The notes beneath the pieces were generated by a model. That model did no database searches, was not told the origin of the DNA, and saw nothing but the letters and a program-made list of their open reading frames with translations. A program made the translations under genes and the position numbers. From assembly GCA_021442885.1 (NCBI GenBank), contig JABUVA010000001.1:2692-22748 (forward strand): 20,057 nucleotides of DNA, read 5' to 3'. Source of the DNA: Methanobrevibacter sp. GTDB lineage: Archaea; Methanobacteriota; Methanobacteria; Methanobacteriales; Methanobacteriaceae. The number at the start of each line of letters is the position of its first letter. The first letter of the stretch is position 1. Positions 5,551 to 10,143 of this stretch are shown piece after piece.

Positions 5551-8373
5551 TTGAATAATTTTATTAAAAAAATCGAGCAAATTAATTTTGGTTTAATGTC
5601 TCCTGAGGATATTCGTAATATGTCTGTAGTTAGAATTGAAGCTCCAGATACTTATGACGAAGACGGATATCCAATTGAAGGAGGTTTAATGGATCCTCAT
5701 TTAGGTGTTATTGACCCTTCATTAAAATGTAGGAGTTGCGGTTATAGAGGTGGAGAATGTCAAGGACATTTTGGCAGTATTGAGCTTGCAAGGCCTGTTA
5801 TTCATGTTGGTTTTGGTGACATAATATTTAAAATATTACGTTCCACTTGTAATGAATGTGGTAGAGTTCTTTTAACTGATGAAGAAATTGAAGATTATAA
5901 ACAGAAGATTGATGAAGCTAAACATCATGGAGTCAGTTTAAATAATCTTTTAAAAGAGATTTATAATGTTTCTCGTAAAGATAAATGTCCTCATTGTGGA
6001 GCAGAACAAGGAGCAATTACAATTGACAAACCTGTTTCAATTAATCAAGAAATTGGGCCTAATGAAGTTTATAAATTAACTCCTTCTGAAGTTCGTGAAA
6101 GACTTGAAAGAATCACTGATGAAGACTCTTATATTTTAGGTGTTAATCCAGAAGTAGCTAGACCAGAATGGTTAGTATTAACTGTATTACCAGTTCCTCC
6201 TGTAACTGTAAGGCCATCTATTACTTTAGATACTGGTGAACGTTCAGAAGATGATTTAACACATAAATTGGTAGATATTTTAAGAATTAACCATCGTTTA
6301 ATTGAAAATATGGATGCTGGTGCCCCTCAACTTATTGTAGAAGATTTATGGGAACTCTTACAATACCATGTTACTACTTACTTTGATAATGAAGCTTCTG
6401 GTGTTCCTCCAGCAAGACATCGTTCTGGAAGACCTTTAAAAACATTAGCACAAAGGCTTAAAGGAAAAGAAGGTAGGTTTAGAAGTAATCTTTCAGGAAA
6501 ACGTGTTAACTTTTCAGCACGTACTGTAATCTCACCAGATCCTAATATTAGTATTAATGAAGTTGGTGTACCTGAAATGATTGCAAAAGAAGTTACTGTA
6601 CCTTCTTATGTTACTGAATGGAACATTGATGAAATGAGAAAATACATTGAAAATGGTCCAGATATACACCCTGGTGCAAACTATGTTATAAGGCCTGATG
6701 GAAGGAAAGTTAGAGTTTTAGATGACACTAAAGAAGGCATTCTAGAAAAATTAGACGAATTTGAACAACTTCCAGCTGATGATAGACATAATTTCATTGT
6801 TGAAAGACACTTAAAAGATGGAGATATGGTTTTATTCAATCGTCAACCTTCACTTCACAGAATGAGTATGATGGCACATGAAGTAAGAGTATTACCTTAT
6901 AAAACTTTCAGACTCAACCTATGTGTATGTCCTCCATACAATGCAGATTTCGACGGAGACGAAATGAACATGCACGTTTTCCAAACTGATGAATCTAGAG
7001 CAGAAGCAAAAAGTTTAATGCGTGTACAAGAACACATTCTTTCTCCAAGGTTTGGTGGACCAATTATTGGAGCTATTCACGACCACATTTCTGGTGCATA
7101 TATATTAACTAGAACAGGAACTGATTTTGACTTTGAAACTGCAATGCAGATAATTAGAAAATCACATCTTGACATTGATAATGCACTTGTAAGAATTGCT
7201 AAATTCAAAAAAGAGAATGATGAAGAAATGAAAGGTGATGATTTATCTGATACTCAACTAATTTCTTATTTACTAAAATTAAAAGAAGATGTAAGAATTA
7301 CTGGTAAAGAATTATTCAGTTTACTTTTACCAGAAAATTTAAATCTTAATTATAGAGCAGAAATCTGTAATAACTGCTCTCAATGTGAAAAAGAAGCATG
7401 TCAATATGATGCTTATGTTGTAATTAAAGATGGTCAACTTTTAAGTGGTGCTATTGATGAGAAAGCATATGGTTCATTTTCAGGAAAAATACTTGATAAA
7501 ATCGTTAAAGAATATGGGGCAGACAGAGCTCGTGAATTCCTTGATAGGTCTACAGATTTAGCTATTTGTGGAATTATGCAAAATGGAATTACTACAAGTA
7601 TTAATGACGAAGAAATTCCTGATGAAGCACAAGCAAGAATCACTGAACACTTAGATAAAGCAGAAGCTGAAGTAGATAAACTAATTACAACTTATGAAGA
7701 AGGTTTCCTTGAACCATTACCTGGTAGAAGTCCTGAAGAAACTCTTGAGATGAAGATAATGCAAGTTTTAGGTGAAGCTAGGGACGGTTCTGGTTCTATC
7801 GCTGAAAATTATCTTAAAATGGATGAATATGAAGATGGTAGAAGAAAATACCTTCCAAATTACTCAGTAATTATGGCACGTACTGGTGCTAGGGCATCAA
7901 TGTTGAACCTTACTCAGATTACAGCATGTGTAGGTCAACAAGCTATTCGTGGTGACCGTATTAAAAGAGGATACATTGACAGAGCATTACCTCACTTTAA
8001 GAAAAACGAACTTGGTGCTAAAGCGAAAGGATTTGTACACTCTAGCTATAAACATGGGTTAGATCCAATTGAATTCTTCTTCCACGCTATGGGAGGAAGA
8101 GAAGGATTGGTAGATACAGCTATTCGTACAGCACAATCAGGATATATGCAAAGAAGACTTGTAAACGCACTTCAAGATTTACAAGTAAAACCATCAGGAC
8201 TTGTAACAGATAATCAAGGAATGGTTATTCAAAATATGTTTGGTGAAGATGGTGTAGATCCTGCAAAAAGTGACTTTGGTAAAGCAGCAGACCTAGATAA
8301 GATTATAGATGAAATGAGACTTAAAGATGATGTTGATAATGAATCTTTAGTTAAAGCCGATGGGGGAAATTAA
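5551..8373 (+). CDS. rpoA1: DNA-directed RNA polymerase subunit A'
   Basis: This is the N-terminal two thirds of the largest subunit (940 residues), with the catalytic magnesium loop NADFDGD at residues 464-470 (D466, D468, D470). The clamp zinc site is C60, C63, C70 and H73; a second set is C100, C103, C146 and C149. The bridge helix follows FVHSSYKHGLDPIEFFFHAM near the C-terminus, and the protein ends in the foot region, where archaeal A' and A'' are divided. A further cysteine cluster, C606-x2-C609-x2-C612-x4-C617, lies in the region before the bridge helix and may bind a metal. The start is a TTG at 5551 after GAGGGGGT. The stop codon abuts the rpoA2 ATG directly, so the two are translated together and should be made in equal amounts. 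Confidence 0.98.
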   Translation: MNNFIKKIEQINFGLMSPEDIRNMSVVRIEAPDTYDEDGYPIEGGLMDPHLGVIDPSLKCRSCGYRGGECQGHFGSIELARPVIHVGFGDIIFKILRSTCNECGRVLLTDEEIEDYKQKIDEAKHHGVSLNNLLKEIYNVSRKDKCPHCGAEQGAITIDKPVSINQEIGPNEVYKLTPSEVRERLERITDEDSYILGVNPEVARPEWLVLTVLPVPPVTVRPSITLDTGERSEDDLTHKLVDILRINHRLIENMDAGAPQLIVEDLWELLQYHVTTYFDNEASGVPPARHRSGRPLKTLAQRLKGKEGRFRSNLSGKRVNFSARTVISPDPNISINEVGVPEMIAKEVTVPSYVTEWNIDEMRKYIENGPDIHPGANYVIRPDGRKVRVLDDTKEGILEKLDEFEQLPADDRHNFIVERHLKDGDMVLFNRQPSLHRMSMMAHEVRVLPYKTFRLNLCVCPPYNADFDGDEMNMHVFQTDESRAEAKSLMRVQEHILSPRFGGPIIGAIHDHISGAYILTRTGTDFDFETAMQIIRKSHLDIDNALVRIAKFKKENDEEMKGDDLSDTQLISYLLKLKEDVRITGKELFSLLLPENLNLNYRAEICNNCSQCEKEACQYDAYVVIKDGQLLSGAIDEKAYGSFSGKILDKIVKEYGADRAREFLDRSTDLAICGIMQNGITTSINDEEIPDEAQARITEHLDKAEAEVDKLITTYEEGFLEPLPGRSPEETLEMKIMQVLGEARDGSGSIAENYLKMDEYEDGRRKYLPNYSVIMARTGARASMLNLTQITACVGQQAIRGDRIKRGYIDRALPHFKKNELGAKAKGFVHSSYKHGLDPIEFFFHAMGGREGLVDTAIRTAQSGYMQRRLVNALQDLQVKPSGLVTDNQGMVIQNMFGEDGVDPAKSDFGKAADLDKIIDEMRLKDDVDNESLVKADGGN

Positions 8374-10143
8374 ATGGCTGAAAAAGAATACAATTTACAT
8401 TTTCATGTTGTAGATGGCAATGATAATGCTATTGGTAAAGCTAAAGTAAGCATTAATGATAAGGTAGCACGTACTGGAAAAGCAGGTGGTTGTAATATAA
8501 AAAACATTCCTGAAGGTTCTTATACAGTAACTGTTAATGCTGAAGGATTTTCTGAATATAGTGAGGAGATTTCTGTTCCTTATGAAGGAGATATAGAAAT
8601 TGTTCTTGATGGTTCTTCTGACATAGCAGTTAAAGAATCTGATGAAATAGCTCCAGTTATTAATAATGTAAATATTTATGTTAAAGATAATGAGGGAAAT
8701 CCAATTAATGGAGCTACTGTTACTCTTGGTGATTTTGAAGGATCTACTGATGAGAATGGTCTTTGCCTTATTGAAGATGTTGAAGAAGGAAAAAAATATA
8801 TAACTGTTAATGCAGGTAATTATGAAGAATATAGAAAAGAAATCATAATTCCTCATGATGGAGATTATAAAGTTTCCCTTAAAAAAGTAATGAGTGAAAT
8901 TGATTTAATAATTGATGATTTAAAGTCTAAATGGAATAGGGAGCTATCTGCACTTGAAAAAGATAAAATCCCTAAGATATTAGAAATTATTGATAAATTT
9001 GATTTCTATTTCCCTTTAAAATATAAAATTGATATTTCAGAAGCTTCTATTCGTAGAGAACTTAATGACTCTGAAATAGAAGAATTAATTGAAAGATTAA
9101 TAGAGGCCTATGAACGAGCTCATGTTGAAGCTGGGGAGGCTGTAGGAACTGTTGCTGCACAATCTGTTGGTGAACCAGGTACTCAGATGACTATGCGTAC
9201 TTTCCACTATGCAGGGGTAGTAGAATTAAACGTAACATTAGGTCTTCCAAGACTTATTGAAATCGTTGATGCAAGAAAGAAAATATCTACTCCAACAATG
9301 GATATATATTTAGAAGAAGATAAAAGAAATGACGAAGACTTTGTTAATTATTTAGCAAGTAAAATTGGTAAAAGTACTCTTAAAGATGTTTTACAGAATG
9401 AAGAGTTAGAAGCAGATTATGGGGATATGAAAGTGGAAGCAATTTTAGATCCTCAAAAAATTAAAGCTAAACACTTTGATTATGATGATGTTAAGAATAA
9501 AGTTAGAGGTGCTTTCAAAAAAACAGCATCATTTGATGAGGACAAGATTACTGTAAAACCACCAAAAAAATCTAATAACACTATTAGAGAACTTCGTCTT
9601 TTACGTGAAAAACTTCGTGATTTACGTATAAGTGGTATGAAAGGAATTGATAGGGTTATTATTCGTAATGAATCTATTCCAGGAACCGATAAAACTGAAT
9701 GGGTAATGCATACTCAAGGTTCTAATTTAAAAGAAATTCTTTCAATAGATGGTGTTGACAAAGAAAGAACTACTACTAATAGTATTCATGAAATTAAAGA
9801 GGTTTTAGGTATTGAAGCTGCTAGACAAGCTATTATTGATGAAATTATCAATACCTTAGAAAACCAAGGTCTTAGTGTTGATGTAAGACATATTATGCTT
9901 GTAGCTGATATGATGACTTCTGAAGGTATTGTTAAATCAATTGGAAGACATGGTATCAGTGGTGAAAAATCAAGTGTTTTAGCACGTGCGGCATTTGAAG
10001 AAACTGGTAAACATTTACTCCTTGCAAGTATTCGTGGAGAAGTAGATCATTTATCAGGTATTATTGAAAATATTATTATTGGACAACCAATACCTTTAGG
10101 TACTGGTTCTGTCGGTGTCAAAATGGCAGATAAAAATGAATAG
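8374..10143 (+). CDS. rpoA2: DNA-directed RNA polymerase subunit A'' with two N-terminal carboxypeptidase-regulatory-like domains
   Basis: The C-terminal part of the 589-residue product is a normal A'' subunit. It has the trigger-loop block [19 protein letters not shown] (254-272) with the catalytic-loop histidine H278 (matching yeast Rpb1 H1085), then jaw and cleft segments, ending in the conserved [10 protein letters not shown] motif. Unusually, about 172 residues precede it. These form two similar beta-rich repeats, residues 6-80 and 97-171. Both follow the pattern V-x-D...G/A-x-V...T...G-x-C-x-I...Y-x-TVNA...EY...EI...P-x-x-GD...L and are joined by an acidic linker. The pattern resembles carboxypeptidase-regulatory-like or Cna-B-like sandwiches. 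The frame is continuous. The ATG at 8374 directly follows the rpoA1 stop and has GGGGG upstream; the internal Met173 has no ribosome binding site at a proper distance. The function of the extension is unknown. Confidence 0.97.

Follow-up and report, generated by a model that had tools for sequence, protein, structure and literature searches.

Archaeal RNA polymerase is commonly taken to have near-invariant core subunits. RNA polymerase insertion domains restricted to single lineages, such as BEAN and HABAS, are already known (PMC11515920). By their description in that source, these are also extra folded domains at lineage-specific sites of the two largest subunits; the insertions described there are mostly bacterial, and its text gave no hit for Methano, carboxypeptidase, Ig-like, immunoglobulin or foot. 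The closest described domains are the carboxypeptidase regulatory-like, or transthyretin-like, family (PF13620, with solved examples 5aq0, 1qmu and 6hif_Y) and the immunoglobulin-like (Ig-like) domains of Methanobrevibacter tailed viruses (vir075 tail tube protein, BK068243, and vir080, BK063677). The subject of this report is the rpoA2 gene of a Methanobrevibacter sp. (Methanobacteriaceae), coding for RNA polymerase subunit A'' preceded in the same frame by two domains of this kind. It lies on a stretch of 20,057 nt, referred to as the window (G000:C11:2692-22748), from a draft genome of 1.57 Mb that is 77% complete.

The rpoA2 frame has an ATG start and 589 codons, is open throughout and follows directly on the A' stop. 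As claimed in an earlier note on this DNA, about 172 extra residues are joined N-terminally to the A'' subunit in a single uninterrupted frame. The subunit is complete, because residues 214-584 match nearly the full length of the rpoA2 model TIGR02389 (model positions 3-366 of 367) with 492 bits, above its cut-off of 420.65. G+C content at codon positions 1, 2 and 3 is 0.529, 0.308 and 0.081 in the extension and 0.492, 0.324 and 0.137 in the A'' core, and because of this resemblance the extension looks like coding sequence. A 153-amino-acid (aa) open frame on the minus strand (window 8395-8856) is antisense to the extension.

Residues 1-172 are members of PF13620 (60.0 bits in two stretches, cut-off 32.3; repeat 1 singly 35.2 bits), and PEGA and other sandwich families match them as well. 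The extension is predicted to fold as two seven-stranded transthyretin-like beta-sandwiches. The carboxypeptidase-regulatory-like sandwich proposed from the letters is thus borne out, also by the fold prediction to which the earlier note had submitted it. Sequence family and predicted fold are alike with the solved PF13620 examples, from which the window copy differs by its place at the N-terminus of an RNA polymerase subunit. In the AlphaFold model of full A'' the core is poor (mean predicted local distance difference test score, pLDDT, 64.4; predicted template modelling score 0.39), and PDB matches of the model are RNA polymerase chains; the position given below for the extension comes from alignment and not from this model. 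The two repeats are identical at 26/72 residues (36%, E 9e-15 in a single comparison). That they are repeats holds as previously claimed; their origin by duplication within A'' is plausible from the alignments and uncertain, because one alignment puts repeat 1 closer to some virion domains (up to 43-44% identity) than to repeat 2 (34%). A purely local duplication is thus one possible origin of the pair.

The fusion is present in two further database proteins. P0001 has 589 aa, comes from a contig of 3505 bp and represents a cluster of 7, to which the window's own protein may belong; its one difference from the window is at residue 100. P0002 is a 326-aa piece from a separate contig of 8590 bp and differs at residues 84, 85, 96 and 99. 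All five differences fall within residues 84-100, with 84 and 85 in the linker, 96 at the linker edge, and 99 and 100 where domain 2 opens, at its first strand; elsewhere in both alignments with the window there are zero differences. When the extension alone was compared with the protein database, it was matched by 0/96 candidates at E<=1e-3. In 14 relatives picked by hand, 3-18 bases separate the A' stop from the A'' start that follows it, mostly with a G-rich motif upstream of that start. Judged from the sequences, the polymerase-sandwich fusion is confirmed and would be made as a 589-aa frame, and an assembly artefact is unlikely. Sequence evidence weighs against two events that would have undone the earlier proposal: the same frame in other database sequences speaks against a sequencing error joining two frames, and, on the sequence side, the region 5' of Met173 (8890) was found to be without a ribosome-binding-like site.

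A' aligns to human RPC1 (7a6h_A) up to residue 928 and A'' from residue 1007, and A' matches yeast Rpb1 up to 877. This alignment supports a location of the extension at the A'/A'' break. The gap between the two RPC1 alignments we take to be the Pol II foot. A site near the foot had been suggested before, and its chain-break part stands on the alignment. Coordinates are collected in Table 1. Genes of the window, all in one direction, are rpoB'', rpoB', rpoA', rpoA'', an L30e gene, a NusA-like gene, and those for EF-2 and EF-1alpha.

Table 1. Features at the A'/A'' junction and within the fused rpoA2 gene (window positions)
Feature	Positions	Strand	Remarks
rpoA1: A' (Rpo1N)	5551..8373	+	stop codon adjoins A'' start
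Ribosome-binding-like site GGGGGA	8362..8367	+	six bases 5' of ATG 8374; by eye against 14 relatives
rpoA2: A'' (Rpo1C), 589-aa fusion	8374..10143	+	stop included
Transthyretin-like / CarboxypepD_reg domain 1, residues 5-79	8386..8610	+	PF13620 alone 35.2 bits; model strands 5-78
Inter-domain linker, residues 80-95	8611..8658	+	pLDDT <50 at 86-94
Transthyretin-like / CarboxypepD_reg domain 2, residues 96-169	8659..8880	+	
Linker and extra helix, residues 170-191	8881..8946	+	precedes normal A'' N-terminus; includes Met173 at 8890
A'' core, residues 214-584	9013..10125	+	TIGR02389 492 bits

With the extension as query (E<=1e-3), some match was found in 32/138 genomes of the family. Leaving RNA polymerase aside, the extension finds its best family matches in the C-termini of tail tube proteins (6e-16 and 3e-13) and in virion-locus proteins about 90-105 aa long. 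Virion-gene relatives of vir075 or vir080 occur in 14 of the 25 loci that are neither RNA polymerase nor the window's own; some of these matches are weak (e.g. L236, 52 residues), and the 25 loci are the best match per genome only, hence part of the full match list. The extension has four matches in a set of 50,697 phage records. The vir075 tail tube protein ranks first, over residues 7-78; two others are versions of vir080, and the remaining record is a human-faecal phage without annotation (27.5%). The Ig-like domains of vir075 and vir080 are 46.6% and 37% identical, respectively, to the window over about 72 residues and have a TGxAGGC motif in common with repeat 1; they are coded in virion genes, whereas the window copy is in the rpo operon. 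A search of IMG/VR with the extension gave 34 stretches and zero relatives, and with the vir075 domain 1/18 was a relative. Origin from cell-surface proteins was considered and rejected: elsewhere in the window genome PF13620 is matched five times, by frames of 2999 (three), 933 and 1194 aa, and none of these copies matches the extension at E<=1e-3. A TIR-domain-like protein (by eye) of locus L240 (G085:C1) has two copies of the sandwich domain and a GSTDENGxC motif that is also seen, by eye, in repeat 2.

The rpo loci of relatives comprise 113 new loci, 112 of them with rpo genes, in 111 genomes; genome G056 was left out, the four large subunits were parsed, and the window was added. Besides the window, rpo frames matching the extension among the 138 genomes are B' of G013, G036, G051 and G059. 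All four of these B' N-terminal extensions score above the PF13620 cut-off, that of G013 with two stretches. A PF13620-type domain above the cut-off is C-terminal (residues 567-646) in P0093, a 702-aa A'' protein from the database. On a tree of 110 loci, which does not include P0093, the window and the four B' domains need at least three changes.

Different modules are present at other sites. An N-terminal extension of 100-300 aa, a J-domain-related module, was found in 36/109 B' sequences (108 loci); all 36 belong to the window's genus, which has 52 loci on the tree. A seed profile of eight B' modules, seven with HPD, has E. coli DnaJ as its best PDB match (E 1.3e-5), and the other 28 modules match the profile with E 1.7e-12 to 0.0079 (search of those 28, filters off). 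The HPD motif is present in 7/36 modules and missing from 29/36. When 13 of the 36 were scanned with the J-domain model PF00226 (cut-off 27.8 bits), two were above the cut-off (L145, 28.6; L129, 29.2), five more HPD-bearing modules were below it (18.0 to 26.9), and the six scanned modules without HPD had no DnaJ match at E<=0.1. The missed cut-offs and the absence of HPD in most modules weigh against a plain J-domain reading. Likeness to the J-domain is in the HPD of seven modules and the match to the E. coli DnaJ profile; most modules differ by lacking HPD, and the window has no such module. The HPD-bearing J-domain-like module opens B', between B'' and the B' core, in L115, L116, L117, L129, L135, L145 and L153. 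HSP70 was found in 9/9 genomes searched; that of the window genome (DnaK, G000:C8:74196-75934) is split over two frames, which is real or a draft error. In L197, B' of G129 has a 406-aa N-terminal extension of three tandem repeats with NPDK-like motifs; it was tried as a J-domain and left undecided, with NPDK motifs seen by eye, DnaJ at 19.3 bits and nothing convincing in PDB.

In 24 loci A' is longer by at least 60 residues, which are mostly inserted at core positions 145-167 and 528. N-terminal additions to A'' of at least 60 residues are present in 19 loci including the window, 18 of them on the tree, where at least four changes are needed. Those of L182, L184, L116 and L115 contain the helical unit of the A'' N-terminus in further copies (best E 8e-9 to 9e-4 in single comparisons), and L185, the fifth of five compared, has a weaker match (0.009). 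A'' frames in 13 genomes from three other families are 385-454 aa. Comparison of the loci shows recurrent addition of modules to RNA polymerase in the family, which alters the earlier picture: the extension stands, as one of several such additions. B'' and B' form one continuous frame (1116-1183 aa) in L143, L173, L174, L185, L186, L188 and L209, with at least five changes on the tree; the split B subunit was apparently re-fused repeatedly, with frame errors in drafts as an alternative. L206 (G099:C9) has a second A''-like gene, 398 aa from the first start, about 9 kb from a normal 982-aa A''; it is 52% identical to the window core and below the TIGR02389 cut-off. A'' of L183 (G085:C1) contains an acidic insert of 81 aa and, C-terminally, a repeat region of 74 aa.

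As the best explanation of these results we propose that A'' is made as a 589-residue protein, with two self-folding transthyretin-like domains placed N-terminally on flexible linkers. Compact modules (transthyretin-like, J-domain-related, helical repeats) would join in frame at exposed chain ends, namely the A'/A'' and B''/B' breaks, and at loops, where they are presumably tolerated. The domain itself may have been drawn from a pool of Ig-like modules circulating in virion genes of methanogen tailed viruses. The domains would hang from the foot region as a tethered, non-catalytic surface module, at most docking or supporting assembly. Taken as a whole, a fusion that is one case of recurrent module addition at polymerase chain breaks, of virion-pool origin and present as a tethered surface module, is probable, with moderate confidence. 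Several results weigh against it. Repeat 2 singly scores 29.2 bits, just below the PF13620 cut-off. With region 1-175 as query and whole-protein lengths considered, the extension was found in P0001 and P0002 only (2/910 candidates), and in the closest relatives, L121 and L140, A'' is without it. The tail-tube PHROG family has no match to the window extension at E<=0.01, though it matches the B' extension of G013 (3.2e-13), and viral descent is suggested by similarity over a short domain.

The alternatives differ mainly in the present use of the domains. A rather even competitor on use, with the same anatomy as the proposed tethered module, is that an Ig-like module was joined by chance in frame, must fold and does nothing useful, being tolerated because the A'' N-terminus is exposed. 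Three observations favour such near-neutrality: the fusion is confined, in the sequences seen, to a single species cluster; which module sits at a given break varies from species to species; and the window polymerase has a longer branch (0.23) than its neighbours L121 and L140 (0.035 and 0.032); that the two other sequences are unchanged outside residues 84-100, and that the same domain subfamily reached RNA polymerase at least three times, speak against it. It is also possible, though we hold it tentatively, that the pair of domains docks a factor specific to the lineage, or assists the joining of A' and A'' at the foot. Some use is favoured by domain residues that stay unchanged and by a subfamily that arrived repeatedly, and neutrality by the species restriction, neither of them strongly; no partner is known, close relatives assemble their polymerase without the extension, and 29/36 J-like modules without HPD argue against a docking or assembly role too. 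These two views of use are about equally likely. A stronger version is doubtful, in which gut methanogens are still domesticating foreign modules on their RNA polymerase: virion Ig-like domains and J-domains were captured several times at the A'' and B' breaks and are used as lineage-specific recruitment surfaces. If true, the J-domain on B' would recruit, e.g., DnaK, the Ig-like domains a virus- or stress-related partner, and the surface of a core enzyme would be rewired by modules from viruses and chaperones. That the extension is an assembly error or untranslated, with A'' beginning at Met173, would fit the incompleteness of the draft and the in-frame ATG at 8890, and is very improbable, given the identical frame with sequence variation in P0001 and P0002, the lack of a ribosome-binding-like site before that ATG, and a window A'' that starts directly after the A' stop as those of 14 relatives start close to it.

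Extra domains of RNA polymerase are a known kind. The PMC literature searched, which is without bioRxiv preprints of its own and most subscription papers, yielded no archaeal A'' or B' with modules of the transthyretin-like or J-domain-related type, and no polymerase with such domains. Filters of marker genes by length or domain (rpoA2, rpoB) can fail in this archaeal group. Near relatives with and without a module make tolerance and use of RNA polymerase add-ons directly testable. Within one family, closely related species differ by whole folded domains added repeatedly to A', A'' and B' at predictable sites, and because relatives added similar or other domains several times, the polymerase surface is unusually changeable in this group.
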